Shown one piece after another: positions 6,346 to 27,556 of a stretch of DNA of 27,556 nucleotides. The position numbers and the translations under genes are program-made. Each line of letters starts with the position of its first letter. The first letter of the stretch is position 1. The notes under the pieces are model-generated. The model did no database searches, was not told the origin of the DNA, and saw only the letters and a list, made by a program, of their open reading frames with translations. Location: contig CADWAF010001853.1 of the NCBI GenBank assembly GCA_902984215.1, positions 1 through 27,556 of the forward strand, in the 5' to 3' direction. Source of the stretch: Willaertia magna (lineage: Eukaryota > Heterolobosea > Eutetramitea > Acrasida > Naegleriidae).

Positions 6346-6386
6346 AAACACAACCAACAACAACATTCAATGCAACAACTAGTACT

Positions 6387-7083: not shown

Positions 7084-7092
7084 TGAATTGTA

Positions 7093-7620
7093 AAAATTGA
7101 AGAATTAAATGAAGAAAAAGAAACCAAAAAGAAGAAGGTTAAGGAAGTTATTTATGAAAATAGAAATTAGTCAACAAGATTGAATCATTATAAATTCATG
7201 ATTCAAAAACTATCACAAAAGAAGAATATGCAGCATTTTACAAAGCATTTACTAATGATTGGCAAAATTATTTTATTGGTAAACACTTTTTTGTTGAAAA
7301 TAATCTTGATTTTAAGGTAATCCTTTTTTTACTTAGCAAGGCTCTGAAGAAGAATGGATAAGTTTAAAAGAATATATAAAAAGAAAGAATTCGAAGTCTT
7401 ATACATGATTAACCTAATTGATGAATACATGGTCTAATAATTAAAGAAATTTAATAGTAAAAAATTAGTCTGTGTCACAAAAGAATGTTTAAAATTACCA
7501 GAAATTGAAGAAGAAAAGAAGAAGAATTAGAAATATTATTGGAACAATTAATGCGAAATTTAACTTTAGATCAACCAACTGAATTATTTAAAAGTTTATT
7601 ATTGGTTTTGGTGAATAAAG
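7093..7620 (+). pseudogene. Hsp90 pseudogene fragment
   Basis: This matches the middle and end of cytosolic Hsp90, an ATP-dependent chaperone. A charged linker ('EEKETKKKKVKEVIYE') is followed by 'TITKEEYAAFYKAFTNDW' (7200-7262), 'KHFFVENNLDFK', 'EEEWISLKEYIKR', 'LIDEYMVQQLKKFNSKK' (7411 onward) and 'LVCVTKECLKLPEIEEE'. A last piece, 'LTLDQPTELF', resembles the C-terminal 'SGF.LDEP' segment. Several blocks between these are deleted and the frame shifts repeatedly, so it is a pseudogene. The QQ in 'MVQQLK' is encoded by TAA TAA (7435-7440), and Hsp90 proteins generally have QQ there. No ATPase domain is present. It is joined directly to the UGPase fragment. Confidence 0.85.
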
Positions 7621-7889
7621 GTTTTTGGACATTGTATTTTTTTTTAAACTTTTAAGACATTGTAGTTTTTTAGCATAAAAACTTAAAAATAAAGGCCTCC
7701 AGAAATTAAAAATCAAAAGTATCTTTCTGCCACTAGGAATTTGGAGCAGAAAAAAAATCTGCAAAAAATGAGTTTACCAAGTTCAATACTTTGATAAGTA
7801 TTTAATATTTCTCTTTGTAAATTATATTTCGATCAACAAAAAAAAAAAAATTAAATGTAACTATTCATATCTTTTAAAGAAAAGAAAAT
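7621..7889. other. Intergenic, short repeats
   Basis: Two copies of 'gacattgta' followed by T runs (7629 and 7653) resemble the minisatellite unit at 22181-22352. A stretch near 7700-7790 ('tttctgccactagg', 'gcagaaaaaaaatctgc') looks like the tail sequences of the SINE-like copies. I see no gene. Confidence 0.4.
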
Positions 7890-8969
7890 TGTTTTATCTG
7901 TTGTCAACATAAAAAAGACATTACTTTTAGTGATATTAAAAGAAAACTTCTTACACGATTGAAAATAACTTTAGATGAAGAAAGCAAATACGTACTTTGC
8001 AGTGACAAAGGTTGATAGTGATACATTGATAGATATAGAGATTGGTAATGAAAGTAATTTAATTTTAAAAGATATTAACTCTTTAAATGATCAAGAACCA
8101 ATTATAGTCTGTAATAACAGTGGTATTATTGTAGAAGATAATGAATCAGAAGACATTATTATATATTTGAAGATTTTTTGAAAAGATGTTATTACAATTA
8201 ATGCATAACATTTTTAGATAATTAAACAAATGATTATATTTTAAAGAAAGAAAGATTAGAAAACATAAGTGTTGTATGTCAATTATTTACTGATAAGATG
8301 TCAATTTTTCATTCAGAAGATATTAATAAGTTAATTTTAAAGGTTTATGATATTAAACATAAAGATAATTTATTTGCTTTCTTTATTGATGAATCTTTGT
8401 CACAATATATATATGAATTAGATTTTTGCTAGAATTTACCTAAATATTATGTGCTATCTAGGTATTTTCTTAAATGTTATCTCTTTAAAAAAACGGAGTT
8501 CTCATCAAATATTATTACTAGTTTTCTTTTTTTATTGTCTTTTTTTCACCACAAATTTACTTGTAATTTCTTTTATTACAATATTTTTTATTGCAAATAT
8601 TTTTTAAGGAGGTATCCTTGTAATTTTTTGCCGATACACAAAAAATTAAGGTGTGAATTTATTAGATAGTTTAAATCAAAAGGATTTAAACTCACAATAG
8701 AAAGTCTCCAAGATCTAGATCGCTGTTATTTAAATTTAAGTTAGTTGTGCTATGACAATATGTTGTGTTTAACTAAAATGGGGAGAATATGTTATTACTT
8801 TTGGGAATATAAGAGTTTAGAGTAGCAAAGCTTCTTAGTTGTAGACATAGGTTCTATTCTGCTACTTTATAATAATTTTTTATATACAATACGATACCAG
8901 ACATTTCAATAGTTTAAAAACACCCTTTTATTACAGAAGGGACAGATGATGGGGCCCAGTATTTTGAAT
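7890..8969 (+). CDS. Unknown protein with N-terminal Cys-rich motif, frame breaks
   Basis: If TAA/TAG are read as Gln, about 360 coherent codons run from 'ENCFICCQHKKDITFSDIKR' (the Cys codons start at 7890) to the edge of the next LINE. The frame moves at about 8010 and moves back in the T run at 8174-8179, so a pair of indels cancels out. No in-frame TGA is seen in either reading. Recognisable composition: an acidic middle ('IIVEDNESEDIIIYLK'), then 'FAFFIDESLSQYIYELDF', a Phe/Cys-rich hydrophobic stretch near 8500-8620, and 'MGRICYYFWEYKSLE'. The CxxC-x-H start hints at a zinc ribbon. I recognise no family. The true start is unknown: no ATG is in frame just upstream of the Cys cluster. Confidence 0.45.
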
Positions 8970-8984
8970 AAAAGGAAAAATTAT

Positions 8985-10984
8985 ACGTCAAAATTTACTA
9001 AAAAACAATGCAAAACCAATTTTTTTGTGCGATATCGTATTAATGATAGAATTCTTTCATAATTAGTTTGATAACTTCCTCAAGTTTTTTCTCAAAATTA
9101 AAGAGAATATTCTTTTTAAGGATAACCCTTGAAGCTTTTTGTGTTTGCTATTATGTTTTCGTCAATAAATCTTAAATTCCAGTCATAAAGAACTGTTATA
9201 GCATCTTATTTGCTATATAGAAGAGCTTTTTCTAATTTATTTTTAAAACAATGTATGAAGACATGATCCCAATTAGAGCATGAGTTACATATAGAATATT
9301 GTAAAAAGTCTTTGTTGATTTCTTTAAGAATGTATACCTTATGAAGACACATAAATCCCAATCTTTGTTGAAACCAGAATTGTAATGATTTACACCACCA
9401 TTCTCCATTTAAATCTAAATTTCCCAGGAGAAAATTTTTTTTTCTATTTCTATATTCTTTAAGAATAAACTCTCTAATGTTGGGAACTATCTTATTATTA
9501 TTAATCCAAACTATTTTGGCATTGATGTCTGTAAAGTGATTTAAAGGTAGATTAGAATGTTTGCAAGTTAAAGTTAATTTAAATTTTTGAGCAAATTTTC
9601 TATAAGTACTCCAGTATTTTTCTTTACTTCTACTAGTCTAACAGTTTCTAGACATTCTCCTTGTAAGTGGTGCTTCTGAATTAATAAATTTGATACAAGA
9701 GGCTAAACTTTCAATAACTCTTAGATCTAAAGAGGCTATAATATCTAATCTCCTTTTATCTATATCTCTATAAATTACTGCTTTAGAAAGAAGATAGTTT
9801 AAGCTTAATTTTCTTTTAATCTATTCAGCAATTTTGGAATCCAATTTGTTTAAAGTTGTTTTTTTAATTCTTATGATACTACATAAATATCAAGGAATAG
9901 AAATAACTTTGGACATAATTATTACTTTAAATTGATTAAGATATAATTTTCTAGTAAAAGACAATTTAAGAGTTTTATGAACTTTATTTTTAATTTTTTT
10001 GCTATTACTATTCTACTGATTAAACTTTAATGTGGATACTCCTAAATATTCCAGTTGTAATTAGATATTATTAATCTTAATAATTGCCTTAAATTTATAA
10101 TTACTAAGTGTTTTATTCCATGTAAAGCATTTTTCTGAGGCAAAGTGCAAACCTAATTGTAAGGCAATAGAACATAAATTATTAAGAAAAAAATTCATTT
10201 CTGTTTTAGAGTTAGTAATGATAATTAGATCATCTGTATATATGAGAAATAAAACTTTGTTTTTGTATGCAGTAACACCACTATATTGGTTAATTAATAA
10301 ACTAATAATGTTAAAATAAAAGTTAAACAATAAGGGATTAACAAGGTTACCTTGAAGCACTCTTATAAAAGCTGCAAAATCATTAGTTAAGTGGTTATTC
10401 ATTAAAACTTGAATTTTGTGATTTGTCAACAAATTTTGATTTATTTCAGTGACTTTATAGTTAAACCTTTTTTATTTAAATAGCAAACTAAGTTTGCTAT
10501 GAACTATTAAGCTGTAAGCGTTTTTAATATCAGTTGTTGTAATGTAAATAGGTTTTTTTTTGAAGTATGATAATAGACCACTGATTTTAAAACTATTAGT
10601 TGATTTAGTGTTGATTTTTTTTTAAAGCCTTTTTGGCATTCATGAATAATATAATTATTATCACAAACATCCATTAACTGATTATTAATTATTGTTGAGT
10701 ATACTCTGTAAATAATAAAGATCACAACAATAGATCTAAAGTGTTTAAACAAAGTAGAGGATGAAACCTTAAGTAGAAGAAATAATAATCCTCTTTTAAA
10801 TGACTTGTCAATTAGTGAGTCTAACAATCATTTGTTAAATTGTTCTATTAGAATTTCACAATGTTCTTTTTATAATTGCTTTAACAATAGAATGGAAATA
10901 TTGTTTATGCTTTGCATAGAATTTTTCATCTTTCTAATAATATTTAAAACCAATTTTCCATCACAATTACAAAAGTTCCAATTT
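8985..10984 (-). pseudogene. LINE copy 2, 5'-truncated ORF2 (reverse transcriptase)
   Basis: Minus-strand relative of the LINE at 240-4905, from just before the RT domain to the C-terminus. Matching blocks include 'MKNSMQSINNIS', 'IYRVYSTIINNQLMD', 'VLQGNLVNPLLFNFYFN' (motif B with QG kept), 'YTDDLIII' (motif C, TDD instead of ADD), 'CFTWNKTLSNYK', 'LLGNLDLNGEW' and a finger 'CNSCSNWDHVFIHC' (CX2CX5HX4C). TGA at 10828-10830 aligns with a TGG of copy 1, and TGG at 10978-10980 aligns with a TGA of copy 1. A TAG is conserved at the same codon in both copies ('IA-E-TAG-IKRKL' versus 'LA-L-TAG-IKKKL'). The 5' truncation is typical of LINE insertion. The break near 10990 meets a SINE-like copy. Confidence 0.8.
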
Positions 10985-11440
10985 TTATAGTCCTAAGTTC
11001 AATATCAGTTCATTACAAAAATCTCAAAAAAAAGAAAAAGATTTAAGCTTAAGAATTGACCGTCCATTTTTTGTAAAATGATTACAAATATAGATAAATT
11101 GGGTAGGAGACTGTAGAAAATGGGAGACTATTGTAGAAGAGGATAACTGAACCAAGTTTGTCTTTTATTTTTATTACAATGTGATTTTTTACATAATTTT
11201 ATATTATCATCTAATCAGATTTAGCCTACATAACCTAATTCTACCAACATTATTTCTGCTAAACAGAATAAAATTATGTCAAACTAGATTTTACAAATTT
11301 TTTAGCACAAAAAAAATACCAAATAAGTAGAAAAAAAATTTCTGTTAAGCGATGTAATTATATATGAAATTATTTTTCCGCGATTTTTCGCATAAATACA
11401 AGCAGAAAAAATGCTTTTTTTGTATGCAGGAAAAAAATTC
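10985..11440 (+). mobile_element. tRNA-related SINE-like repeat, copy b, 5'-truncated
   Basis: It begins with 'tatagtcctaagttcaa' (10988 onward), which corresponds to the B-box region of copy a. An A-rich spacer follows, then 'atttaagcttaagaattgac' and 'ttttttgtaaaatg' (11041-11080), the shared core in the same order. The A-box half is absent. Downstream are 'tctgct' and 'cagaaa'-rich words as in the tails of the other copies. The right end is approximate. Confidence 0.45.
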
Positions 11441-11454
11441 TATATACTAGAATT

Positions 11455-12375
11455 TATATAGCCAATGTTAAAGTTGTTGGGACAGAGTTATTTAAAAAAC
11501 TTAATGAAAGTGATAAAAAGTTTAAGAAATAGATAGAGGATTTACAATTATTTGATATCACACCAAATATAATTAACCCGTCTTTTAAGTAATATAATAG
11601 TTTGTTTTCATATTCTAAATTATGCCCTAATCATATAATTACTAATTGGAAAACAAACAATATGGTTGTATTTGATTTTAATATTAAACATCAATACAAA
11701 AGAGTAGAAATTACACTTTCATTGGAGAATAGAATTATATAGAATGTTAAATTTAATTCTATCAAAATTTCCAACAAACAAAGCTCAAAATTAGAAATTC
11801 TTAATAATAAACTAAAGAATTGTAATACGTTCACTAATTTAATTGATATTTTAGGTAATGTTACCAATAGATTTGGTAATATGAATGTCTTTCTTTAACA
11901 AGTAATCAAAATTATATGCATTTAGATAATACTTATAAGCAATTAAGAAAATACTATAAAATTCAAAGAAATAATAACTCTTGGGTTAAATTTAACTACT
12001 TCAATGCACTTACTTTAGAAGGGGCCATTAAAGATTGTGTTAAGAAAAAGAAGGATACACTTTTATCACTTTTTAAAGAAAAAAAAGAAAGTTTTATCAA
12101 ACATATCAATAATCTTCATACAAAAGTCTCTTTTTCCTATCTATTCAAAAAGAAACTTAACAATATGTCAATAAAATCAGTTTATAATAATTCACCAGTA
12201 GAAATATTTAATTTTTTTAAAAAAATATTCAATACTAACTTACTAAATTCTCAACTATCTCAATTCAGTATCCTTAATAGAAATATTATATGTGAGTCCT
12301 GCATCTTGTATCATACGGTTACAATATTATTTGATTGTTATTCATTTTTCTTAATTACATTAAACCAAAAGTAGC
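11455..12375 (+). pseudogene. LINE copy 3, fragment of ORF2 (endonuclease end plus linker)
   Basis: About 300 codons read as the C-terminal half of the AP-endonuclease-like domain ('IEDLQLFDITPN', 'FSYSKLCPNHIITNW') followed by the linker before the RT. 'LSLFKEKKESFIKHINNL' matches 'LCLLKERKNVFILKINNL' of copy 1, and 'FFKKIFNTNLLN' matches 'HFDSIFNTFLGD'. TAG/TAA read as Gln upstream. The frame shifts near 11900. The RT itself is missing, so this is an internal fragment truncated at both ends. It is more diverged from copy 1 than copy 2 is. Confidence 0.7.
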
Positions 12376-12602
12376 GTAGTGTACAAAAGTTATTACTATT
12401 TGTTGTTAATAGAAAAAAAGAAAAAAAAGTAGAATAAAAATAATTTATTTAAAAATACAATTAGAATATCTAAAAAAGAAAAATAAAATATAAAATGTTA
12501 GTTAATTAAAAAAAAGTAAAATAAAAATTATTAATTAAATAAAATTGTAAAATTAAAATTATTAATTAAATAAATTAATATTCTAAATGATAAAATAAAT
12601 TA
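12376..12602. other. A-rich low-complexity spacer
   Basis: Runs of A with 'taaaataaaaatta' words and repeated 'attaattaaataaa' (about 12530-12580). It could include the poly(A)-like tail of LINE copy 3 or the left end of the next element. No gene seen. Confidence 0.4.
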
Positions 12603-14869
12603 ATAATACATGTAAAGATATTTGTGACATTTTTTATATGTAACTGTTTCATCTTTATGTTTAATCTTAAAAACAAGTAAAAATTCTTTTCAATTACAGT
12701 CATCTATTTTATACAAAGTATAGTCTGATAAATCATTGTAAATGTCTACTTTTTTTTTGTGCTTAAATTTTAATTCTAAATTATCCTCATTAACTTACTA
12801 TCAACAATATTACAAACTAAGTACTTCTATTTAGTTACAACAAACATTATTATATCTTTCAAAAACCTGATTCTAAAATTATTAATCATTACAAACTTTT
12901 CATTGTCAAGCACATAATATTGATTTCTATAAAAATATAGCATATCGTAAAATTTAATATTCTAAAGAATTATGAGCTATAAATGTTTTTATAAATGACG
13001 AATTAAATTTTTTAAATATGAAAACACTATTCAAAAGTATTAGTTTAAACATATAAGTATTTAAAGTCATTTCGGTTGTAACGTGAATATTAAATGTAAA
13101 TTCTTTATCTTCTTTAAATAAGTAACATAAGACTTTTGCTATCTTGTTTTGTATACCATTTAATTTATCAATTTCTATATCCTCATATAATTTATCCATT
13201 AAGTCAATATATTTTTATATATTTATATATAAATCAGTATCTATGTTTGTTTGTTTAAATAATGTAAAATAATAGTGCATAACACAATAACATTCTATTA
13301 CTTTAAGCTTTCCTTTTGTTAATATTAAAAATCTTGGTCTTCTTTTAATAAAAGATGGCCAATCATTTTTTAATAATAAATTATCAAATTCCTTGTAGGC
13401 ACTTAAACATTTCTTCATTATAAATAAAATAATCTATAAAATATACCTTCATATAATGTATACATTGTGTTAAAACAGTTTATCTGAAAAGAATAAACAT
13501 AAAAAAAGAATATATAATGTACTTTTTTTTCTTTTATTTTATCGTCACTACTACGACCATCATATATCTTATTATAATGTACTTGTGTCCTTTTTTTAGC
13601 TAGTTTGTAGTATTTATGATCAAAAAAAAAATCATTTTGATCATTTAAATTTTCTTTATCTTTCATAATCTCTATTTTTTCTTGTTCACTCAGCTTTGCA
13701 AATTTATTTAAATAAACAACCTTTACTTTCTTACATTTCCCCTCAATTCCAATACCCAATTTCTTGCAAAAATAACAAAAATAGTAACCAACACTCTTCA
13801 TAAATATCATCTTTGCACGAGCAAGTAAATTATAAATTAATTTATATATTAAAATTCTTAATTTTAAATAAATATCATCTTTTATAAAAATCCTTTCTTC
13901 TATCTTTCTTATTTCTTTAAATAAAATCTCATAAGATATTTCTATTTCTTTCTTTTTTGAATTATTGACAAAAACAAATAATAAAAAAGAATTCTTTATT
14001 TTCTTTCTGTCACACGGTTTAAATTCATTAAATTGAACAAAAATAAAGAAAAAGCTTAAATTACTTTTTTTAAAAGAGCTAATGCTATTACCGTTTATAG
14101 TTATTGAGTAAGTGTTAGGTTTTTTTGTAAAATGATAAATATATTTTAAATAATTGCTACTTTCATAAATGTTTATTATTTTGTTATCATCTTTGTTCAC
14201 AGTGTAATTATTATAAAAATAATTTAAATCATTTAAACAGTTGCTATAAAAGTTCATTTTGAATTCTAATTGATTTACGAGAGGTTTGTAATAAAAATAA
14301 TTACAGAGCCTTCTGTTATAATAACAATTTTCATCTTTAGCAGTCTTAGAAAATGTATAAAAATAACATTTCCTACAAAAATAAACTCTTTCTGTATTAA
14401 ATACTCCGTTAAATTTATAAAAATTTCTTAAATTCATTACATTAAATGTTGAATAATTTAAATCAGAGTTTAAATTTGATGATGTTTCTAATTCATTTAA
14501 ATTAGATTGTAATACACTATCATTATCTAATTCGTTAGTGTAATTTTTTAAATTATATACTATATATTCTTTTTCTTGTTCATACATATCTATTTTATCT
14601 AGTAAATCTTCTTCATTTAAATCTAAATCCTCTTCAAATAAATCTTCATGATCATTTAAATCTAAATTCTTTTCAAATAAATCTTCATCATCATCAGTTT
14701 CCATTCTATTATGTTCCAAAACATTTATTAATGTGTAATGATCAAAAGAAAAATCATTTTGATCATTTTTATTTATTTTTTGTTCATTCATTTCTTGTCT
14801 ATTCATTTTTTGTTGACTTGCAAAAAAATATAACTTTCTAAGTACTCTAGTCTTTCTATTTAAATCCAT
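12603..14869 (-). CDS. tnp2/CACTA-type transposase-like protein (with DUF4218-like C-terminus)
   Basis: ATG at 14867-14869 opens 483 codons free of all three stop triplets, then a frame change near 13418 leads into a C-terminal part. After an Asn/Asp/Glu-rich N-terminus come 'FCRKCYFYT', 'TINGNSISSFKKS' (the DG strand), 'YNLLARAKMIFMKSVGYYFC' (the D.PAR...G..C block) and 'INCFNTMYTLYEGIF' (the D.MH...G block). The DUF4218-like part follows: 'WPSFIKRRPRFL', 'VIECYCVM' and 'FNIHVTTEM'. These are the landmarks of CACTA-type transposases, which cut and paste DNA in the nucleus. In three places Asp is expected and Asn is present, so activity is doubtful. The reading extends to about 12603 with a TGA at 'DDCN-TGA-KEF'. 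A shortened paralogue lies at 22827-24281. XY diverges from just upstream. Confidence 0.7.
13618..13647. repeat. 30-bp palindromic repeat, also at 14738-14767
   Basis: On the minus strand both sites read 'aatgatcaaaatgatttt', then T's, then 'gatcat', encoding 'NDQNDFxFDH' in the same protein at its N-terminus and again about 370 codons later. Each copy is itself an inverted repeat (tgatcaaaa/ttttgatca). The N-terminal copy is conserved in the paralogue near 24178-24205, where the Gln codon is TAA instead of CAA. Confidence 0.6.
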
Positions 14870-14990
14870 TTTTTTTAAATTGTTATTTTTATTTTTTTAT
14901 TGTTATTTAATTACAAAGAGCTTAATTAGGAAAATTACATCAAAAAAATACCTCAACATACACTTCGGCAATAGTAATAGTTTTTTTCAT

Positions 14991-15180
14991 AATAAAAACG
15001 ATAGTTATGATTCATCTAACTTTTGTTTATCATCATTATCATCATCAAGATTAGTTACAAGTTCTTTATCATTTAAAACAAGATTAATTATAGATTCTTC
15101 TTACAATAAGAATGACAGTTATGATTCATCTAATTCTCATTTATTATCATCATCATCATCATCAAGATTAGTTACAAGTT
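14991..15180 (+). repeat. Tandem 114-bp coding repeat
   Basis: 'gatagttatgattcatctaa' begins at 15000 and 'gacagttatgattcatctaa' at 15114. Both are followed by a Ser-codon run (tcatcatcatca) and 'agattagttacaagt'. The period is 114 bp, or 38 codons, so the reading frame is kept. Confidence 0.75.
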
Positions 15181-15582
15181 TTTCATTATCTAGTTATGAA
15201 AAGAAAAAGAGCCATTATAGAGCACCATTTTATTATTTAACTGACAGAAAAGCAAGGTTTTAAGAAACAAATTCTAAACAAATATGAACGAAATTATGGA
15301 AGATATTATGAACAAAGAAGAAGAGAAAAACATACTATCATAGCAATAAATCTTCCAACAGTAATTCGTATTGACACAAGTAACACACTAAAATTGGTTA
15401 ACAAACAAAATAATTTCAAACTTAATCCAACCAAAGGTCCTTTTTATACTCTAATTATATTCAATTGGCCTACTCTGTAAATACCATATCTACCTACAAA
15501 TAACACACCTGTATATATCAATCCTATAAATGAACAATTAAATAATCAACAATTAAACAAATCTGTAGAAATTCTATGGCTA

Positions 15583-15641
15583 AGCCTAGAAGAAATTAAA
15601 AGAATAAATGAAGAAAATAAAAGAAAGCATGAAGAAAATAG
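15583..15641 (+). repeat. Direct repeat, left copy (partner 18239-18297)
   Basis: About 58 bases here and at 18239 differ at only about three positions ('gcctagaagaaattaaaa' versus 'gcccagaagaagttaaaa'). Similarity continues after a roughly 10-base gap ('aaaaaataaata'). The two copies flank the integrase transposon and encode the same coiled-coil segment of XY. Confidence 0.75.
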
Positions 15642-15737
15642 TAGAAAGTTAAAAAATAAATAACAATTAAACAAACCTGTAGTAATTACATGGTTAAGTT
15701 TGTAGTAGAAAGAAACTTCTTCCTAAAAATTAAAAGA

Positions 15738-15775
15738 AAAATTTTCAGTTAAAAGTTTTTTAGGAAAAATTTTCC
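15738..15775 (+). repeat. Left terminal inverted repeat of the integrase transposon
   Basis: 'agttaaaagttttttaggaa' (15748 onward) pairs with the complement of 18163-18200, with roughly 30 of 37 positions matching by eye. Confidence 0.65.
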
Positions 15776-15820
15776 TTCATATTTACAAATACGAAAGTAC
15801 ATCAGAAGAAGTTGTTCAAA

Positions 15821-18137
15821 TTAAAATGTATTGTAAATAAATTTGAAAAAGTAACAATCATCAAATATTTTAGTTTTTTCATCGTCAAAAGAGAAATCTT
15901 CTATGGTCGCATCATAATTACTACATAATAAATCATTCATTTCACCTTCGGAATCTTCTTTTATGTTATTTATATCTCTTTCTTTTATAGTTTCATCTTT
16001 CATATAACGACAAAGTGTTATCTTTGCCAAAGTGATAGAGTTTAATATGTGTAATATGGACTGTAGAAGTTGTATTTGGCTTTTAACTCTTCTTTCAACC
16101 TCCAGTTTCGGACTATTTATAAAGAAAGGTGTTATTGTTATTTGATTTGATGATTGTTACTTTTTTAGTCTAAAGACCTTCTTGCATTGCTTTATTTCTT
16201 CTAATAGTACTTAGTCTCTTAACTCTAACAATAGTGCCAACTTGAAAAGGATTAGTACTTTAAGTTCCGCGTAAGTAAGAATAATTGTTTTGATTTCTTT
16301 TTTTAATTATGCGATCTGTTATTTTTTGTTTTAATAATTTTAATTTAATTATTCTCAATTTTCTTTCTTAATTACTTGATGCTTCTTTGAGTAAAAATTC
16401 TTCATATAATTGATTAAGAGAATAACTTGTAGTTGAGTGAATAGTTAAATTGTAGGTTTCTATATAATTTGGTAAAGACTTTAACCAATCTTTCTTTCTT
16501 AATTTAATTGAATTTTTAATTGATTTCTTCAATGTTTGATTTACTTTTTCCACTATACTTTAAGATATTAATACATTCACAATTTTAAAAGCAAGTTCTA
16601 TTCCCATTTCCTCGCAATAACCTTTAATAGTGGAATTAGAAAACTTTAAATCATTATCTAATCTAATTTTCAAATTATTTTTTACCTTTACTCCAACAAG
16701 GGTGAGCTTTTCAACAACATGTTCTAATTTTTTTTTTAATTACTTCACCATCTTTTGTTTTAGAAGAAAAAACAATTGTTCTTTTTATAAAAACATTAAT
16801 AAAACAAATACAATGTTTAAACTCTTTAATATTCGAAAAATCAAAACAATCAAGAAAATACAAAGAAAACGGACCATTTGGAATAGTAATAGCACAAAGT
16901 GTTCATACTTGAACTTTAGATGAAGATATTTTATTTTCTTAACAAAACTTACATCTTTTAATAAATGTTTTAACAGCTTTAGTTTTTCTAATGAAATGAA
17001 ATTCTTCTCCAATTGCAGTTAGCATTTTACTCTAGACAGTTATTTTTTTCAGTATTCTTTTTATAAATCTAAAAATAAATCCAAAGATTAAACTTTAAAC
17101 TCTACATAACAACCTATTTATTTAAGGACGCAAAAAATAAAAAAAAAGATAAGAAACTTATGATTTGTTAAAATAATAATAAGTCTTGAGTCAAATTAGT
17201 CACTTTTACTTCTTTTATTGAATCACAATCCATTTCATCGTCATCTGAAATTATATTTTCATCATTAAAGTCTAAATTTTCTTCTTTTTCTTGTTGAATC
17301 TTTGCATTTTATGCAGCTTTTTTTAATCTTTTTAATTGATCAACTTTGTGTTTCTTTTTGTTGTCAGAAGGGATAATTGAAGATAAATTATTGTTTGCTT
17401 TTAATCTATATGTTGAAAGAAATATTTTGGGTGAAAGGTTGTGACTGGAAACTTTATAAGGTTTAATTTCTTTCTCTGAATTAAAATTACAATAAAATTT
17501 ACAAAAATTTGTAATTATTACAAATATAACAATATCTTTGTAAAAACATTCCACAGTTACATTTTCTTGTTGTTAAATTAAAATCAAAATGAGATACATT
17601 TGTTGGACATCTTAAGAGTCTTGGAGGTTCAATGAAAACTTAAGAGGTCATTTTTTTACTGAAAAGACAGTGCTAAAAATCTGTCTCCAAAAAATAACTA
17701 TCCAGAGTATCTCTAGTGTTAGTATGATTTTTACCATGAAGTTTTATAAGTAATTGTAAGATTTCTTTTTTACTTGGGACTTTTATCCATTTTTCTTTTT
17801 TTACTTTTTTGATTTTAAAATGAATATTTTTTTGAAAACTAAGTAAATTTTTTCTAATTTTATTTTCATCTTCTTTGGTCCAATGTAAAAGTACTTCTTT
17901 CTCCATGATAGAACCTTTATTAATAAAAAGTTCTTCATTTTCAAATTTTGTATTTTTTTTTATATTTAAAACGTGTCTACTATTGTTGATAAAAGGTAGT
18001 ACTATTTTCTCATCTAAAAAGTAAATATTTCTAACAAGTTCTAATATTAACAACTCATTCATTTGCACTTCATCAAACAAATATTTTATATTTTTACTGA
18101 GAGGCTTTTCAGTTGGTTGCTTTATGGTTTTAGACAT
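15821..18137 (-). CDS. Retroviral/Ginger-like integrase (transposase), with frame breaks
   Basis: ATG at 18135-18137. Residues 1-150 end in 'LLIKLHGKNHTNTRDTL', like the HxxxH half of an integrase zinc domain. Then comes a Cys-rich patch, 'TRKCNCGMFLQRYCYIC', somewhat SWIM-like, and an acidic stretch. 'TFIKRCKFCQENK' (about 16940) is the CxxC half. The DDE core has 'YFLDCFDF' (D1, about 16850), 'IRLDND' (D2, about 16655) and 'SIVEKVNQTLKKS' (E, about 16555), followed by 'WLKSLPNYIETYN'. A C-terminal SH3-like segment, 'NPFQVGTIVRV' (about 16235), and an acidic tail finish it. The frame changes near 17540, 17100 and 16110. TAA/TAG read as Gln and one TGA lies at 16903-16905. It would join transposon ends to target DNA. 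The extra 200 residues between the two zinc-ligand halves are unusual. Confidence 0.75.
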
Positions 18138-18162
18138 ATTTTTTTTAAAGACAATTTACAAT

Positions 18163-18200
18163 AAAAATTTTCCCTGAAAAACTTTTACCTAGACAAATTT
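18163..18200 (-). repeat. Right terminal inverted repeat of the integrase transposon
   Basis: 'aaaattttccctgaaaaact' (18165 onward), then 'tttacctag', is the inverted partner of 15738-15775. It lies just upstream of the integrase start codon, so it probably also holds its promoter. Confidence 0.65.
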
Positions 18201-18204
18201 TTTC

Positions 18205-19707
18205 TTGTTTTTCAAGGAAATTTTTTTCCTTTTACAAAGCCCAGAAGAAGTTAAAAGAATAAATGAAGAAAATAAAAGAAAGCATGAAAAAAATAGAAAA
18301 AATAAATACAGACAAAGAGAAAATATAAAATCAAATAAAAATATTATTAACAAGTACACAGAGAGAAAAAATTATGACTTATTTAACTCTTTTAAATATG
18401 ATTGAGTTTCATAGAGAAATTATAAAAGTGACAATTTAAACAAAAATTCAGAATTGTTTAATACTGTGTTAGAGAAAAAGAAAGAAAATAATAAACTATT
18501 AAATTCTAAACTAACAAAGAAAATTTCGGATATTAATATAACATATTTAAAAGAAATAAGTAGTTTAATTCAAACTACGAATAGAAAATTTAAAAGAAAA
18601 ACAACTTTACATGAAAATGTTCACTTATTTGAAAATAAGTATACAAACGTAAAGAAATTCTTTAAATATTATATCAATTCAAATATTAGTGATAGAGTTA
18701 TTACTTTTTTTAAGGTAATATATTTTAAATAAAAGAGAGATTCAGTTGAAGAAAAGAAAATTACTAATGTTTATAAGTTGAATTATAAAAAGCAGAAAGA
18801 AAAGAAAAAATTTAAAGTTATTCTTAATTTTACAAGTGATATCAAATCTAGTATTAAATTAGCTTACATTGATAGTGATTGTAGTGAGGTATATAGAAAA
18901 ATAAAAGATATAATGAATTACTATATACAAAAGACTATAGATGGGGACTTAAGTGAAAGAAATGAAAATTTTTATTTAAATGCTTTTTATAAATTGTATA
19001 ACACTAAGAAAGGGTATAAAGTTTTATAATTTTTACCCTCAAAGTACAATCTTATTTTCAAATTGTTGAAAATAAGACAATTTAAATGTTATACACATGG
19101 AAAGTTTAGTTATGCCTTTTTATTAGGTGTTACTGATTATAAAATTGAAAAGAACAATAAAAATAGACATTTTTTTAATTGACTTATAGTTTAGATCTAA
19201 AAAAGAATGTATAGTTATGATATGCCTTTAAGTGATTTCATTAAAGTCATACATAGTTATTTAGTAGAATGTGTCTATCAAAAGATTCTGCAATACTTTA
19301 GATGGGAAAGAAGTCTGTATAACGATGATAATAAGGTTAGAATGAATATGAATTTAAATGTACAATACAATTACAATTCTTTATTTATTCCTGTATTTGA
19401 TAATAAAAGGAAATATATTAGATTTGAATGGAATTATGTTGTAAAGATTATGATGATTTTTAATAATGTATCAAGTAACAATTTATATGAACTTTTAGTA
19501 TGGATATTTGGAGAATTCTTTATTAGGTATGCTATAAAGAAAGATTTTGTACAATATTTATAGAAGGAGTTTTTTCCAAAGTATTAATTTGATAAAAGTT
19601 ATTATATAAAGTATTACTTTCACTTTTTGAATATAATAAGATTAAACAAGGAAAGGTTGTTTGAAAGTATTGAATTTGGTTACTTTTTAGATATTGATTT
19701 AAAATAA
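18205..19707 (+). pseudogene. Gene XY of unit 1, 3' part
   Basis: One frame is maintained for about 500 codons if TAA/TAG are Gln and the TGAs at 18403 and 19180 are passed. The first 60 residues are a charged coiled coil ('SPEEVKRINEENKRKHEKN'), then a Lys-rich helical region. A globular part begins near 18780: 'FKVILNFTSDIKSS', 'FYKLYNTKKGYK', 'KLLKIRQFKCY', 'RFEWNYVVKIMMIF', 'LVWIFGEFF'. It ends near 19705 in 'DIDLK' followed by TAA TAA. The block with FYKLYN and KLLKIRQFK aligns with 'FNKLYERNRNF' and 'KKLKINTFR' of the unit 2 homologue, confirming that both TAA codons between are sense. No known domain is recognised. It continues the part at 14895-15737. Confidence 0.6.
18239..18297 (+). 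repeat. Direct repeat, right copy (partner 15583-15641)
   Basis: Near-identical to the segment at 15583-15641. It lies about 40 bases outside the right inverted repeat of the integrase transposon, while the left copy lies about 100 bases outside the left one. Confidence 0.75.
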
Positions 19708-19940
19708 TAATTGTAAAATAAAACTTTTTTTTTTATTTTTTTAAAATTATTTGACCCATAAATTTCTTGTAATTTGTTGTTTTTGTAATTTATGGCTTTC
19801 TTTATATCAATCTCTAGAAGTTTAATAAATATATATTTAAATTTCTTAATTGGAAGAAATAATTTAATTAAATTCGTTTTTTTTATGTTTTATTTTAATT
19901 TAGAATTTTTTTTTTGAAAAAAAATATTTTAACAATAACA

Positions 19941-22085
19941 ATGAAAAACATACAAACTATTGCATCAACAAGAACAAGAAAAATTAGGAAACTTAAAGAT
20001 AACGTGTTCCAGGACAATATAAATAGAGCTGAACAAGAAGAAAGGAAAAGAAAAAGAGAATACAAGAAGAATTCAACAAAGAAAATTAAAGAACAAATAG
20101 AAGAAGAAGAACTGGAAAAAGAATTAATTGAATTGGAAGAAGAAAATGTTGAAGATTTTGAAGGATATAGATTTGATTTAACAATAAGAGAAGAAAGAGA
20201 AAGAGAAGAAAGAAGAGGTTTAGCCGAAAAAAATATAGTATAAACTTATAGTTTAGTACAGTTAATCTTTGATTTAGTTTATTCAACTTCATCTTTACAA
20301 GCAAGTATCCTGACACTTATTTCTCAAGAAGAAGAAACAGGCAAATAAAAGGAGAGCTAAAATGCTTTGTAAGTAATAATTTCAACAAAAAAGACTACAA
20401 TTACCTGTATAATTAAGAAACATAAAATTTCACCAAAGAAAGAAGAAAAAAAGAAAGAAGAAATTGAAAGTAAAAAGAAAGTTTTGCCTTTTTTAGATTT
20501 TAACACCGAAAATTATGATTTTTCTAATCTTCAAGTTAGCAAAGAAATAACTTCAAATAGAATAGTAACGTCTATTAAATTAAAAAAAGCATCAAACAAA
20601 ACAAAAAAAAACAACATGAAACAAGATTTTATAAAAATGTCCTATCTAGGGATGATTTAATTTTCACAACAATAACGATTATTAACTATTTAAAAAATTT
20701 AAAAGATTTACATTAGAAAGATAAAGTTGAATTGATATTTAAAAACAACAACAATACTTACCTCAGTGTATTTTGTTACATTTATAATTTTTATTCTATA
20801 CATTCATCCTTAAGTAACAATTATATTATAGGTTTTGCTTCCAAAACAGTAAAAGATTTAATTATTTTTATTAAATCTTTATATAAAGAATTACTAATTG
20901 TTGCGGGTATGTTTTTTGGAAAGTTTTTGCATTTAGTGACTTTATTAAAATTTTTGGAGCTAAATGAAATCGTGACGAACAAAAGGGAATAATAAGAGGA
21001 TTGATGTAAATGATGAAGTAAAAATTGTATTAGACTTTAGTAATAGGAAATTTAACGATTTATTCAAACAAATTGCCTGTAATCATTTAACTAAAAGTGA
21101 AGGTAAAATATTTTGTATTTATATTATTGGCAAAGAAATAGTTAAAAGTAAATCTAGTAATGGTTGGATTGTTGGAAATATTATTTATTTTCATAATATG
21201 GATAAATTAGTAGAGTTTGAGTTAAGGGAAGATGAATTAGAAATTTTACATATACACTTATTTAAGTTTTCAACAGAACTTCCTTTGTTAAATATAGAAA
21301 GAATATGTTTTAAATCTATAGAGTTTTATTTCTAGCCAAAAGTAGTGCAAGAATTAGGTAGTAATGACTTACAATAGGAAAAAACTTGTGCTTTTTTTTT
21401 AAAAGCAATAAATAATAGCGAAACAAAAAAGAGTGCTTCAACAACACCATCTCTTTCCCCAATTCTCTCCAAAAAAGATAACAATTATTTAATGTTACCT
21501 TTTATAACAGAATAAAACACAGTTGTTTTAGAAGAAAATATTCAATTAAGAAAAGTATTTTTATTAAAGTTGTGTACTTATTATAAGAAACAATATGAAG
21601 CGATAAAGTATAAATATGATAAAGCTTTAGGAATTATAGAAAATTTTGAGGAATTATGGAAGAATATTATGTTTTGACAAAGTCAAAGTAATAAATTCCT
21701 TAAAAATATTGATGCTTTGAAGTTAGAAGAAAATATTTTAAATATTGATACATTTTATTATAAGTTTGATTCTGGTAATGTTATTAATGTAGATAGAAAT
21801 ATTTTAAAGAAGCTTATTGAGAAGACGCAAAGATATGAAAGATATTATTTAATTGTTAATTTATTATTTAATAAGGATTATACTTTTACAACTGTTGAAC
21901 AATTATTTAAGTTGGATCCTTCTGAAAGAAATGAGATATTTACTGTGGATTTTAAAATTGAAAAGATAATTGCGGGAATAAAAAATATTGAATTTAAACA
22001 AAATATCAAAACTTTCATACAAACAAGAAAGGAAGCGTTAGAAGAAAAGTTTAGATATGATGAAAAGAAAGAAAATAATAATTAA
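19941..22085 (+). CDS. Gene A of unit 1, unknown protein of about 715 residues, two frame breaks
   Basis: ATG 19941 starts 'MKNIQTIASTRTRKIRKLKD'. A strongly charged coiled coil follows (residues 30-100, 'EEEELEKELIELEEENVE'), then a Lys-rich linker. The frame leaves near an A run at 20604-20612 and returns near 20990. After that it is open to 22085. Conserved blocks shared with the unit 2 copy are 'TVKDLIIFIKSL', 'IIGKEIVK', 'FELREDELEILHIHLFK' and 'KYKYDKALGIIENFEELW'. TAA/TAG occur in frame at several places, and one TGA at 21675 ('IMF-TGA-QSQ'). I recognise no domain; the layout (coil, then helical globular region) would suit a structural or DNA-packaging partner, but nothing shows it. 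It follows XY by about 230 bp on the same strand. Confidence 0.6.
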
Positions 22086-22180
22086 GAGCAAAAGAAAACA
22101 GAGAGCAAAAGAAAGAATTACTTAGCTAAGTTGTTTTAAATATATTAAGTTTTTGTTTATTTTAATTTTTTTTAATTTGA

Positions 22181-22352
22181 GACATTGTGTTTTTGAGTTA
22201 GTTTTTTGGATATTGTTTTTTGAGTAGTGTTTTGGACATTGTGTTTTTGAGTTAGTTTTTCATGATTAGGAATGAATTAGAAATTTTATTTTTTTTTTAA
22301 TTTAGGACATTATGTTTTTTGAGTATTATTTTAAACATTGTGTTTTTTCACG
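22181..22352 (+). repeat. Minisatellite, 26-28 bp units
   Basis: Units start with 'gacattgtgtttttgag' or close variants at 22181, 22209, 22235, 22306 and 22334, spaced 26 or 28 bases apart with one gap. The repeat sits at the 3' end of unit 1. Two similar words occur at 7629 and 7653, at the end of the Hsp90 pseudogene. Confidence 0.7.
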
Positions 22353-22369
22353 ATTTAATTGTAGATTTT

Positions 22370-22720
22370 ATACACATTTCTAATAAAAAAATTCTGTTAA
22401 ACAGATTTTTTTTCTGTTTTTCATAATGTATATAGTATTTTTTTTCTGTTACACTTAACTAAAATAACATAAAAATTACGTAAAAACATAGAGGATCATG
22501 TTGTAATAAAAAAAATTAACTTAAGTTACCTCTAATCTTTTCTTATCTACTGTAATCTCTCACCTAAACCACTGTGTATGTATTTACTTTACAAAAAGTG
22601 GACAATTAGCTTTCAAGCTTAAATTTTTTTAGTTTTTTTTTAAGCTTTTTTTGATAGACCAAATTTAAATTTGGGACTATATAAATCTTACATCTATTAC
22701 CATACAGCTAGAATGTTATT
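22370..22720 (-). mobile_element. tRNA-related SINE-like repeat, copy c
   Basis: On the minus strand, 'tagctgtatggt' (22699-22710) is a decayed A box (about 9 of 12). The palindrome 'ccaaatttaaatttgg' (22659-22674) lies where the T arm and B box should be. An A-rich spacer follows, then 'tttaagcttgaaagc' and 'ttttgtaaagt', the shared core of copies a and b. It lies between unit 1 and unit 2 of the multi-gene element. Confidence 0.45.
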
Positions 22721-22826
22721 TAACAATTAATAAAGATTCTTAATAAAACTCAAAAAAGAACAACATAACACAATAAAAAGATTACAAAAAATTATAAAAC
22801 AATGTTATTGAAATAAAATCAATAAT

Positions 22827-24281
22827 TTATTAATAATATACATATATTTGTAAACGCGAATATATTTATTTGGTTAATTATTAAAAGTTTTTAACTTAAA
22901 AACAGGCATAAAATTACTTAATTTATTCCTTTTAATAATTACCACTTGTTCACTATTAATATTTATTTTCTTTTTATACTTAAATTTAATTTCTAAATCA
23001 AATATTATTGATAACTTTGTTTCTAATTATAAAAAGGAAATACATATTTAACTTTTTTTACATTTATCTTATCTTTATCTTTATTTATAAATTATGTCAT
23101 ATTCCTCTTTTTTCTTTATTTTATTAATTTCTGCTTCATCATTTGTAATTAAGGTTATTGGATATATTATTTTTCTTTTATATATATTCCATTACTCTTT
23201 AAATCAATTAACTCTTTAAAAAAGATTTTATAAAAATGTTTAATTCAATTTTATAAAGTATACTTAGAAATATTGCAAATAAAAAATTATTTTCAATTTT
23301 TTTCCTTTCAAAAGATTCAAATTCATTCATTTGTATAAATATTAGATAAAAACTTATTGCAGATTTTTTAAAAGAGCTTATACTATTAACATTTAACATA
23401 AAAAAGTAAGTATTTTCATTATTTTTTATAAAACTGTAAATATTATTCCTGTAATTAAAACTGTCATATATATCATTTATATATTTATCTGGTTTTTCAT
23501 TATTGTTTTAAAGAATCTTTAAAATAATTTAACTTCTTTTTATAATCTTTATAAAAATTAATTTTCATTTCAAGTTGATTAGCAAAAAATCTGTAAAAAA
23601 AATAATTACAAGCTCCATTATTATATAAACATATGCCATTTTCATTATTAAAAAATAATCATGACATTCTTTGTAATAATAAACTTACATATTTTTTTGA
23701 ATACCATAGTAAACAAAATAATTTTTTACTATTAATAAACTTCTAATATCTACTATATCGCTTCTTGAGTAATAATTGTTTACTGTGTTGTCTAATATTT
23801 TTTGTAATAATTAAACAATAGTTTTATATTCTTAATTGAACATCTTGCTTTTAAAATAAATATTAAAATTTCTACTATTATTTCTTCTATTTTTTTATTT
23901 GTTAATATATTATTAAAATCAAATAAAAAATAAAAGTAGCCACAATATATTGAAGAATTATCACTTACTTCACTTTCTGCATCACTTTTAGTATCATTTT
24001 TGTTATTAATAAATTGATCTCTATACTTGTTATACACTTTATTAAAATAATCTTTTTCTCTTTCTAATATATCTATTTCTTCATTTAATTCATCTTCTTC
24101 TTCATTAGAATTTTCTTCTGATTCTTTCTTTTTATTGTTAAATTTTTCTGTTTTATAACAATCTAAACTTCCTAAATGACCAAAAGAAAAATTATTTTAG
24201 TTACTATCTTCAAGTAAGGTAAATGTTAACTAATAAAAATTATTAAACGCTTATTCTTTTTAATTTGTTATATTTTTCCAT
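22827..24281 (-). pseudogene. tnp2-like transposase paralogue, internally deleted
   Basis: The N-terminal 'NNFSFGHLGS' matches 'NDFSFDHYTL' of the copy at 12603-14869. 'NVNSISSFKKSAISFYLIFI' matches 'NGNSISSFKKSNLSFFFIFV'. The C-terminal 'DLEIKFKYKKK' matches 'NLELKFKHKKK'. The central D.PAR and D.MH blocks are missing: sequence jumps from the segment after 'IELNIFIK' to the C-terminus. A Gln codon CAA in the full copy is TAA here ('SN-TAA-NNFSF'). An N-terminal helical region ('IIVEILIFILKARCS') resembles the N-terminal part of this protein family and is absent from the other copy. There are several frame breaks, including one near the start. It is not expected to be catalytic. Confidence 0.65.
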
Positions 24282-24362
24282 TTTTTTCTGTTTAAATAAA
24301 AAAAATAAATGTTTAAAAATTTTTATAAATATTTAAAAATAGAATATTTAAATATTTAGGCT

Positions 24363-24930
24363 TGTTCAATTAATTTTAACCATATTATAAAAAAAATAGC
24401 ATCAAAGAAAAGTAGTCTTCGTATTTTCTTGTTTTTGCAAGTTCCGATTATAAAGTATGGAGGAAAATACTACATATCAACTATAGACCTAAAGTTCTAT
24501 TTAGGTTATAATCAATAAGTTATAAATTATTTAAAAATATATAGAGTGTCCAATTCTATTAGATACAAAATAATTACATTAGAAAACGAAAAAAAACAAT
24601 CAAAAAACTTTATACAGAATTGTTATCTTATAAATTGTTTATTATAAAAAAAAAGATAAACACATAGTGTTAAACAAATATAGAATGAATCATGGCTTAT
24701 TAATGTTTAAACTTGATGATTATTTGACTTTTATAAAAAAATCTTTAAAACAAATTCAAAATTATATTGAAGAAAATGATTATTTAATTTATAAGCAGTT
24801 CTATTCTTTTGATAGAACAATCTCGGAGAACAATATATATGATATAAAAAATTACAAATGTATCATTAATATTGATCAAAACATAGTAATATTTTTAGTT
24901 GAAAAAAAAAGTTTCTTTTTTTTTATTTAA
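24363..24930 (+). CDS. Small unknown gene, possible DNA-binding N-terminus
   Basis: Frame 0 gives 'VPIIKYGGKYYISTIDLKF' then 'YLGYNQQVINYLK' with only one TAA, and breaks at an A run near 24650. Frame 1 then continues 'NHGLLMFKLDDYLTFIKKSL' to TAA at 24928-24930. The segment with 'KYYISTIDLKFYLGY' is reminiscent of the start of Bro-N/KilA-N DNA-binding domains, but I hold this loosely. A competing reading in frame 1 from an ATG at 24457 contains many TAA/TAG in its first half and is less likely. There is no counterpart at the same place in unit 1. Start not determined. Confidence 0.4.
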
Positions 24931-25063
24931 AATAAAATTGTCAATCATTTCCAATATTCTAATGGACACTAGAACTAATTTTTAAAAAAAGTAAAATGCA
25001 ATAAAAATAAATATAAAACTAATAATATTAAATAATTTATTTTAAAAAAATAAAAAAACAACA

Positions 25064-26401
25064 ATGTATAAAAGTCACAAAACAAGATATTTTCATTACA
25101 ATTTATCAAATGTAAATGATCAATCATCTTCTCTTCACAAAGAAGAAGAATTAAAGTAGTCAACAAGTACTAATTAACTACTTTCTCTTCCAACAACAAT
25201 CAGATGGCCAACTTCAAGTAATAATCAACCACCTCTTCCTCCAGAACATGAGTCAAATTCTAATTAACCTTGTTTTAAAAGAAAAAAAGAATATTCTTTT
25301 ATTAGAATTGAACTTAATTCAAAGAAAAGAAAGAATGTATTAGGGGAACACTATTATTTTTATAGCGTTCCTAATATATAAAAAAGATATAAACAATAAA
25401 GTTTACAGTTAAAGTTATCACCAGAAATATTATTTAGAAGACAAATATTAGAGAAAAGTAAGAGGGTTGATAAAGTAAAGTTGTTAATATAAATAAAAAG
25501 AAGAACAAAAAAACTGAAATTTAATTTAGTGCAGCGAGTGCCTATTAAAGTATTAAAAGTATATACTGGAGAACTGACTGTTTATAAAGAGTCAGTTTAT
25601 TCTAATATGATATTAAAATCATTTTTCAATAAATATGAAGATGCAAGATTTAGTAGAAATGAATATTCTAGTATTTATGAATATTATAATGCAATTAATA
25701 ACATTATTAATAAATAGATAAACAAAAGTGAATACGATTTATTGTTTACTCCAAGAGAAAAAAAAGAATATTATATGTATTATTTCAACAAATTATATGA
25801 GAGGAATAGAAATTTTATTAAGAATTTACCAAAAACAACATTTACTTTATTTAAAAAACTCAAAATCAATACATTTAGAGTATTTGTTTATATAAATTAC
25901 AATATATATTTTTTAGTAACTTTAAGTAGTAGAAAAAATATTATTAGGAATGATTCAAATCATATGATTTTTAATTTGATTAATAATTATAATATTTATA
26001 GATCATCAACTTTTTTTGATTTACAACAATGCTCTCTAATTGCGCTATATTTAACAAAAATAATGACTGAAAGTAATGACAAATTGGTAAAAAAAATAAT
26101 ATGTTATATGTATTTTAGGTTTTAAAATTCTCTTGTTTTCAAAAAAGATTTCAATAGAGTTGAAGCACAAGTAGAAAATTATTTAAACAAGTTAGATGAA
26201 ATTTTAAGGAAATATAAAAATTTTTGTTTTATGTTTTTTGAAATTGTTAATACTTATTTATTTACTCAAGGTCTTAACTTTAAATGTTTAATACAAAAAG
26301 GATTAATGAACGTTATTTAATGTGTAGTAGTTGTGCGTCGTTATTTGTGTGATGAATTAAAGCAAAATATATGTTTTATTTTATACAAATTTCATATCTA
26401 A
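25064..26401 (+). CDS. Gene XY of unit 2, uninterrupted, unknown protein of 445 residues
   Basis: From ATG 25064 the frame is open for 445 codons when TAA/TAG are Gln: nine internal TAA/TAG, no TGA, no frame break. The start is 'MYKSHKTRYFHYNLSNVND', then a Ser/Asn/Pro-rich disordered region ('SSNNQPPLPPEHESNSN'), a basic region ('KRRTKKLKFN') and a helical globular part. 'FNKLYERNRNF', 'KKLKINTFRVFVYINY' and 'FMFFEIVNTYLF' align with the unit 1 gene. The TAA at 26399-26401 is taken as the stop because gene A of this unit has an ATG at 26406, four bases later, in another frame. It is the best-preserved gene of the window. Function is unknown; conservation beside a transposase suggests a role in the element's life cycle. 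Confidence 0.65.
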
Positions 26402-26405
26402 AGTT

Positions 26406-27556
26406 ATGGTAAAAGAAATTAATAAACTATTAATAAATGTAACATTAGTATTAGATTTTTTATATATAGTTAATAGAAAAAAAAGCAATATTTACTTTAA
26501 AGAGTAAAAAAACTTACGTTATAATTTTATGTACTATTTACAACTTTTTTAGGACACTTTTAAAAAGTAATACAACTATTTTAGAAAGCTTTACTACAAG
26601 AACATTGAAAGATTTAATTATTTTTATTAAATCTTTAGATAATATAGAATTTGCTACATTTATTGATACTTTTAATACATTTAAAAACATTTTGATTTTA
26701 ATTAAGTTTATTAAAAGAACAAAGAAATTAAAATATCTAAATGCTGATAAATTAGATGTAGATAATGAAGTATAAATAGCAATGTTTATTAAACAAGAAA
26801 CATTTGATGCTGTTATAAGAGAAATATTATTATATTACTTTGAAATTGTTTGGAAATTACTGTATAGGTAAAAAAAAGATAGTAAAAGTTGGATTAAAAG
26901 TAGAAGATAAATATTTAGTTAAAGATATTATGTTTTATAACAACTGTGAAAAGATTAAAGAAATAGAATTGAGAAGTAAAACTGAATTAAAAATTCATTT
27001 TATGTATTTATTTAAGAGAATTGGCTTTAATAGACTTTTAAACATTTTAAAAACTGTTAAAAAGAATTTTACACCACTAATAACTTTATCAGTACAACAA
27101 CAAGTACAAGCATTAATAATTACAACGCTATCCATTTAAAAACTACTTGTTATTGAAGAATTTGTAACTTTAGAAGAAGTACAACAAATAATTACTGAAC
27201 ATAGTTCAAAAATTTTAGTTCTTTAAATAATTTTTTTGAAACTAATAGTGTACAAAAACAGTTATTTAAATTTTTACATAAAGATTCTCATTTTAATAAA
27301 CAGAATTTAAATAAACTATCAAACATTTTAGAAGTAACTTCTTTTTACAAAAAAAGCTATAAGCTCTAAAGAGAAGTATAAAAAAGCAACGTTAATGATT
27401 GAAACATTTAATGAATTATATAGTAATATTAATAAGCAAAAAATTCTAAACAAATAAACAAGATATCAAAAGAATTTCAATGAAGAAAGAAATAGATATT
27501 GTTGAAAGAAATTATTATTGTAGATTTATTTTTGGGAGAGTTTGTGATATTAATAA
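26406..27556 (+). CDS. Gene A of unit 2, partial, frame breaks
   Basis: ATG 26406 starts 'MVKEINKLLINVTLVLDFLY', aligning with an internal part of the unit 1 protein. The frame changes near 26553, 26860, 27220 and 27350. Shared blocks are 'TLKDLIIFIKSL' (26607 onward), 'YCIGKKKIVKVG', 'EIELRSKTELKIHFMYLFK' and 'KEKYKKATLMIETFNELY'. The coiled-coil N-terminus of the unit 1 protein (about 200 residues) is absent, so either this copy is N-terminally shorter or the unit 1 gene gained the coil. It runs off the right edge. No domain recognised. Confidence 0.55.

Follow-up and report, generated by a model that had tools for sequence, protein, structure and literature searches.

The window (the whole stretch of DNA analysed, 27,556 nucleotides) corresponds to contig C403 of the genome that was searched (19.24 Mb, 894 contigs). 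It contains two diverged copies of what is probably a multi-gene DNA transposon, each composed of a tnp2-like transposase gene on the minus strand and two further genes, designated XY and A, on the plus strand. This order is present in both copies, as the initial annotation had described, and both are broken. DNA similarity between the two units is weak (67.7% over 334 bp in the transposase region, 79% over 87 bp in A), yet similarity was detected at the protein level. The span first assigned to the element (12603..27556) takes in both units; its start, however, falls inside unit 1, the body of which really begins at 12281.

Unit 1 (12281..22428) was delimited by alignment to the related copies on contigs C1 and C368, with which it shares 87.1% (C1, L005) and 89.0% (C368, L007) identity over aligned bases. 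It carries a foreign insertion and lacks the right terminus. Remains of the transposase gene (12815..14869, minus strand) were recognised by homology and from an open reading frame (ORF, 13418-14896; 492 codons from stop to stop) that is truly open in the standard code and covers part of the protein only, the C-terminal part continuing in a different frame. The 5' part of XY (14990..15698, plus strand, with a provisional start), at which a serine-rich ORF is located (14817-15263), is common to C1 and C368; it is separated by the insertion (15699..18236, minus strand; absent from the C1 and C368 copies) from the 3' part (18243..19716, plus strand), which was found by protein searches and contains in-frame stops. 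Gene A (19941..22085, plus strand; the first ATG is the putative start), identified likewise, is interrupted by in-frame stops and frame changes, and is followed by subterminal repeats of the GGACATTGTGTTTTT type (22180..22347, plus strand), located by a repeat pattern scan. The left-terminal piece of unit 1 lies inverted outside the body (10986..11475, minus strand; 77% over 494 bp to C368:6612-7095, a segment that adjoins the element body in C368, the copy there terminating in CCCAGCAACTT). Across 10986-12281 the left end is turned over relative to the body, suggesting inversion of a 1.3-kb segment; the intervening 11476-12280 resembles a long interspersed nuclear element (LINE) by eye.

Unit 2 (22429..27556) runs off the contig. 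Its similarity to unit 2 of contig C430 (88.4% over 3943 aligned bases) begins at 22429, equivalent to C430:6411, so that about 86 bp of the left end are missing. At the junction 22428/22429 the two units abut with both facing termini lost; candidate causes are deletion, recombination or assembly. The transposase remains (22800..24231, minus strand; protein searches) are heavily decayed. XY (25064..26383, plus strand) shows 66% amino acid identity over 467 columns to the W. magna protein ABK040_016123 (P0009). The initial annotation had described this gene as fully open, a description that did not survive: in the standard code nine stops were found relative to P0009 (two TAG and one TAA at Trp, five TAA at Gln, one TAA in a gap). 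Gene A (26364..27554, plus strand), related to W. magna ABK040_016122 (P0001), is broken and is cut by the contig end.

Further copies were sought in the genome by protein searches, and contigs with at least one hit were counted by script among the best candidates only, so that all counts are lower bounds. Matches to the transposase were obtained on at least 23 contigs, to A on at least 23 and to XY on at least 16. Transposase and A occurred together on 17 contigs, 16 of which have the two divergent and no more than 9 kb apart, and all three genes on 13, in the order transposase-XY-A in every case. This linkage bears out the proposal of a multi-gene DNA element in which a CACTA-type (tnp2-like) transposase is joined to two conserved genes. 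The copies were grouped by similarity, as a matter of judgement, into four subfamilies: subfamily 1 (C403 unit 1, C1, C368), subfamily 2 (C403 unit 2, C430 unit 2, C159, C542, C248, C107, C522, C893, C422), subfamily 3 (C431, C430 unit 1, C638, C397, C343, C183, C828) and subfamily 4 (C132, C323). Fragments of A from subfamily 3 share 32-37% identity with A of C159 (subfamily 2).

The search for alignable ends and terminal repeats, suggested with the initial annotation, yielded definable ends in eight copies: C430 unit 2 (6325-14184), C368 (326-7118), C431 (5888-13822), C159 (2989-11193), C542 (868-8459), C248 (1460-8814), C183 (7685-14808) and C638 (671-8510). These measure 6.8-8.2 kb and terminate in short inverted repeats of the CCC(A/G/T)GCAA type. 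The right terminus, read inwards, is CCCGGCAACT(C/T)ATTTTTGG; it lies next to A in C368, C542 and C107, and C132, C248 and further copies have altered forms of it. At ...TTTGCCGGG the similarity of C430 unit 1 to C431 breaks off. As the 19-base pattern (up to 3 mismatches) was found at 8 places in the genome and its reversed control at 4, the pattern is weak alone, and the evidence lies in its position beside A. On the transposase side the ends read CCCAGCAACTT (C368), CCCAGCAAAAATGAG (C431) and CCCTGCAATTT (C430 unit 2), plus decayed forms, some left ends being picked by eye. No end could be used for C828 (left), C343 (right), C107 (left) or C397 (right), and these copies were left out of the eight.

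Ends were fixed from the CCC-type termini and the alignments before flanks were compared. The flanks were equal at 2 bp in six of the eight delimited copies (C430 unit 2, C542, C248, C159, C183 and C638; permutation mean 3.0, p 0.012, uncorrected for the lengths tried) and at 3 or 4 bp in none, and a target duplication of 2 bp is therefore probable. Repeats of the GGACATTGTGTTTTT type (up to 3 mismatches) were scanned for in 13 copies, mostly 3' parts and including unit 1 of the window with no true end: in 11 of them one to three repeats, all in one orientation, were present in the last 420 bp beyond A, where shuffled sequences gave an expectation of 0.003-0.103 per end. None was found on the same strand elsewhere in the sequence read; on the opposite strand one match occurred in C430 unit 1 and two in C431. 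The left ends of subfamily 2 (L014, L026, L073) seem, by eye, to bear repeats of their own, of the ACTTTTTTTTGGTGCC type and unlike those at the right end.

The transposase appears to be a remote relative of tnp2 (Transposase_21): in the C431 copy a match to PF02992 was obtained (E 5.8e-5, 22.8 bits). The predicted catalytic acids D, D and E, positions chosen by comparison with known tnp2 motifs, are kept in C431, C542 and C828; in unit 1 all three are lost (N, N and K), and in unit 2 the first reads N. Between the second D and the E, a C(2)C motif is kept in C431, C542, C248, C422, C638, C403 unit 1 and C1, and altered in some other copies.

Genes corresponding to A (566-731 aa) and XY (571 aa) are annotated in W. 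magna, where their locus tags are adjacent twice (016123/016122 and 001527/001526). All protein search hits came from this species (8 of 8 for A, 4 of 4 for XY); no Naegleria relative of either was obtained in a search that reaches only relatives sharing exact words. A consists of a basic start, a helical core (predicted model) and a coiled C-terminal part, and on our own reading, with no match, contains a stretch resembling a small beta domain. XY starts with a proline-rich or Asn/Ser-rich part, and its C-terminal half is conserved. Since A (97% identity over 93% of the query) and XY (88% over 410 residues, P0009) of C159 match W. magna proteins so closely, the host is, on this protein evidence, W. 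magna (Heterolobosea) or a very close relative; the published assembly of W. magna C2c maky is larger (36.6 Mb, 24.8% GC, according to the excerpted source PMC6892926).

Stops were counted in high-scoring segment pairs of at least 60% identity to intact W. magna proteins (nine copies, stops in eight). Of 49 stops, 7 stood opposite gaps and 42 opposite a residue; 39 of the latter fell at Gln (32) or Trp (7), which together make up 4.0% of the aligned residues, and the rest at Val, His and Arg. Such an excess is what C:G-to-T:A mutation predicts. In distant comparisons the stops were spread over many residues, as misalignment or older decay would give. Differences within subfamilies (37 pairs) were mainly transitions, with transition:transversion counts of 265:9 (C430 unit 1/C431), 560:53 (C403 unit 1/C368) and 395:61 (C403 unit 2/C430 unit 2), against 17:15, 20:45 and 16:48 at fourfold sites of three beta-tubulin pairs; these genes, under coding constraint, were the sole transition control. 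The copies have thus decayed mainly by C-to-T type mutation. This may have proceeded via cytosine methylation, and three matches to the cytosine-C5 methylase family were found in the genome on two contigs (C319 and C456), one of the C319 matches containing a TAG and a TAA. Repeat-induced point mutation (RIP) or another C-to-T bias, in place of deamination of methylcytosine, would leave the same stops and would likewise explain why C>T/G>A changes are in strong excess in repeated DNA relative to the tubulin pairs. Fungal RIP prefers CpA, and no such preference was seen in a recent pair of copies (CA 0.096, CC 0.106, CG 0.165, CT 0.085; CpG highest). The heterolobosean relative Naegleria gruberi carries 5-methylcytosine in all four contexts, with a build-up in repeats and higher levels where transposon insertions are younger (PMC12344493), which also argues for methylation, and RIP or a similar bias is considered possible though unlikely.

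Selection was assessed from ratios of nonsynonymous to synonymous substitution (dN/dS, NG86). Within subfamilies these amounted to 0.42-0.92, inside the bands obtained when neutral C>T/G>A decay was simulated (mean 0.54-0.66). Between subfamilies, values of 0.28 and 0.32 were obtained for the transposase, 0.56 for XY, and 0.50 and 0.68 for A; only the transposase falls below the neutral bands. By dN/dS, clear past constraint is therefore confined to the transposase, and the comparison that had been proposed for XY and A gave values that neutral decay also produces. Past selection on these two proteins had been deduced in part from the apparently open XY of unit 2, an argument that falls away; selection is nevertheless suggested by the fact that both are still recognisably conserved in four diverged subfamilies, and by the annotated W. 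magna genes.

The annotation of XY and A as ordinary hypothetical genes in W. magna, together with the A contigs on which no transposase was detected (6 of 23), might indicate that both are host genes alongside which a simple transposase element was inserted, the units being segmental duplications. Against this, the gene order is kept in 13 of 13 contigs across diverged subfamilies, both genes lie between the inferred ends in all eight delimited copies, and the short flanks differ between copies (by eye, over a short distance only); a host-gene origin is accordingly regarded as very unlikely. Still less probable is a larger, virus-like (Polinton-type) element of which the unit would be a fragment, a reading to which several genes, inverted ends and the integrase-like frame inside unit 1 could point: the integrase-like piece is a separate insertion that is not in C1 or C368, the delimited copies measure only 6.8-8.2 kb, and the copies read showed transposase, XY and A only, no search having been aimed at capsid or polymerase genes. 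The reading behind the initial annotation, a ciliate element with XY still open and with TAA and TAG standing for Gln, would account for the long frames of a table 6 translation and for the 32 of 42 stops that are TAA or TAG at Gln positions. It was rejected as next to impossible: in a host gene test, three beta-tubulin genes from this genome were found to terminate in TAA and to use CAA/CAG for Gln; Trp is replaced by 7 of the 42 stops (2 of them TGA); and the proteins match those of Willaertia magna. Internal TAA/TAG of an alpha-tubulin gene fall within an apparent short intron (read by eye). The host uses the standard genetic code, and the openness of XY in unit 2 is consequently an artefact; C>T decay in all contexts can mimic an altered code and so forms a trap for genome readers.

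Other mobile DNA is present in the window. The insertion at about 15699-18236 (2.5 kb) contains an integrase-like frame, recognised by eye and with no match in a Pfam scan, and has imperfect inverted ends of its own; a relative lies near the C107 copy (L074; 81% over 497 bp). Its flanks suggest, by eye, a duplication of 6-7 bp. Remains of LINE-type reverse transcriptases are located at 2634-3341 (RVT_1, E 1.5e-19) and at about 9092-10827 (by eye and from weak DNA similarity).

The units are, with good confidence, members of a DNA transposon family of W. magna or a very close relative, a family whose affinity to the CACTA/EnSpm-like (CMCT) group is remote. Direct observation covers the genes carried and their order, the ends and repeats, the division into several subfamilies and the decay spectrum. 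The element (about 7-8 kb) begins with a CCC(A/G/T)GCAA terminal inverted repeat, towards which the tnp2-like DDE transposase is read; XY and A are read oppositely from the middle and are followed by one to three direct repeats of the GGACATTGTGTTTTT type and by the right inverted repeat. Several observations weigh against this interpretation. On C24 transposase and A share a strand; 6 of 23 transposase contigs are without A and 6 of 23 A contigs without transposase, some being cut by contig ends. The genome is AT-rich, and the 2-bp duplication consists of AA or AT; it is missing from C368 and C431, and longer flank matches occur singly, of 5 bp in C430 unit 2 and of 7 bp in C638. C368 and C107 are without subterminal repeats, and the termini are CCC and not CA/CAC. 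The Transposase_21 score of C431 is below the Pfam cut-off (22.8 vs 28.6 bits), and the domain was matched in one of three separate copies scanned, unit 1 being one of the two with none; in the H(3-4)H motif, located in the same interval as C(2)C, the second His gives way to Glu (8 copies), Lys (3) or a stop (1). In the profile and structure searches that had been recommended, no convincing Pfam or PDB sequence match was obtained for XY or A, nor a PDB fold match for A. The transition excess is lower in some pairs (minimum ratio 2.4, C430 unit 1/C638).

With regard to the mechanism, the transposase would cut at the CCC ends, and insertion would generate the 2-bp duplication. A, perhaps together with XY, may act as a TnpA-like binder or regulator that aids transposition by binding the subterminal repeats or by countering silencing, in analogy to TNPA, since no fold or family was found for either protein. 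Copies would have been silenced through methylation of cytosines in every context and would have decayed by C>T mutation. A bolder version, put forward tentatively and rather doubtful, would see a new CMCT-type lineage in Discoba (CCC..GGG ends, 2-bp duplication), whose XY/A module binds the right-end repeats and lifts all-context methylation silencing, the C>T scars marking the losing side of the contest. For a branch of eukaryotes that has been little studied, the family supplies a concrete multi-gene element whose ends, repeats and subfamilies are defined, as well as two protein families with no detected relatives, open to tests for a part in transposition or in anti-silencing. The family also suggests that Naegleria-type all-context methylation may leave a lasting mutational record in Willaertia.

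Among known systems, CACTA/EnSpm elements (En/Spm, Tam1, Tgmt*) resemble the family in a second, poorly conserved protein that accompanies the transposase (of tnp2 type, as that of the family appears to be), in short inverted ends and in asymmetric subterminal repeats; in the maize En/Spm element the tnp2 domain resides in TNPD and the subterminal repeats are bound by TNPA, both proteins being needed (excerpts of PMC2613891). The Willaertia duplication is probably 2 bp (6 of 8), whereas that of CACTA elements is 3 bp (0 of 8 here); XY and A are genes of their own that point away from the transposase, whereas the CACTA proteins are splice products of one transcription unit. No sequence similarity was found. 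Subterminal repeats are present at the A end (11 of 13 copies), and CAC..GTG termini and a 3-bp duplication are absent; because ends and duplication differ, this is not a strict CACTA element.

The fit to the wider CMCT group (CACTA/EnSpm-Mirage-Chapaev-Transib, with Plavaka, ESTA and Lanisha) is incomplete. The three catalytic acids (D, D, E in C431, C542 and C828) are present; the group has 2-5 bp duplications and, in most members, CA..TG ends; the Willaertia duplication is likely 2 bp and the ends are CCC..GGG. According to the excerpted text of PMC12730594, Plavaka, ESTA and other CMCT members have a DDE transposase in which C(2)C is placed between the second D and the E, PlavakaA and ESTA include cases of 2-bp duplication, and some families carry accessory genes. 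The same source gives TGT..ACA ends for PlavakaA, CATCA..TGATG for PlavakaB, a TA duplication for ESTA, and TET/JBP as the accessory gene (PMC12730594). In the three transposase copies scanned, Pfam gave no match named for Plavaka at E 1 or better. One of the roles proposed for A recalls VANDAL/VANC of Arabidopsis, another transposon group likened by that role alone, in which a transposon protein acts sequence-specifically against silencing (excerpts of PMC5735166 and PMC10398659). As far as literature searches show, the gene set and ends appear to be new; the CMC-EnSpm class itself is already known in the group, 38 CMC-EnSpm repeats (0.23% of the genome), compared here by repeat-class count alone, being given for Naegleria lovaniensis of the sister genus in the excerpted text of PMC6125883.

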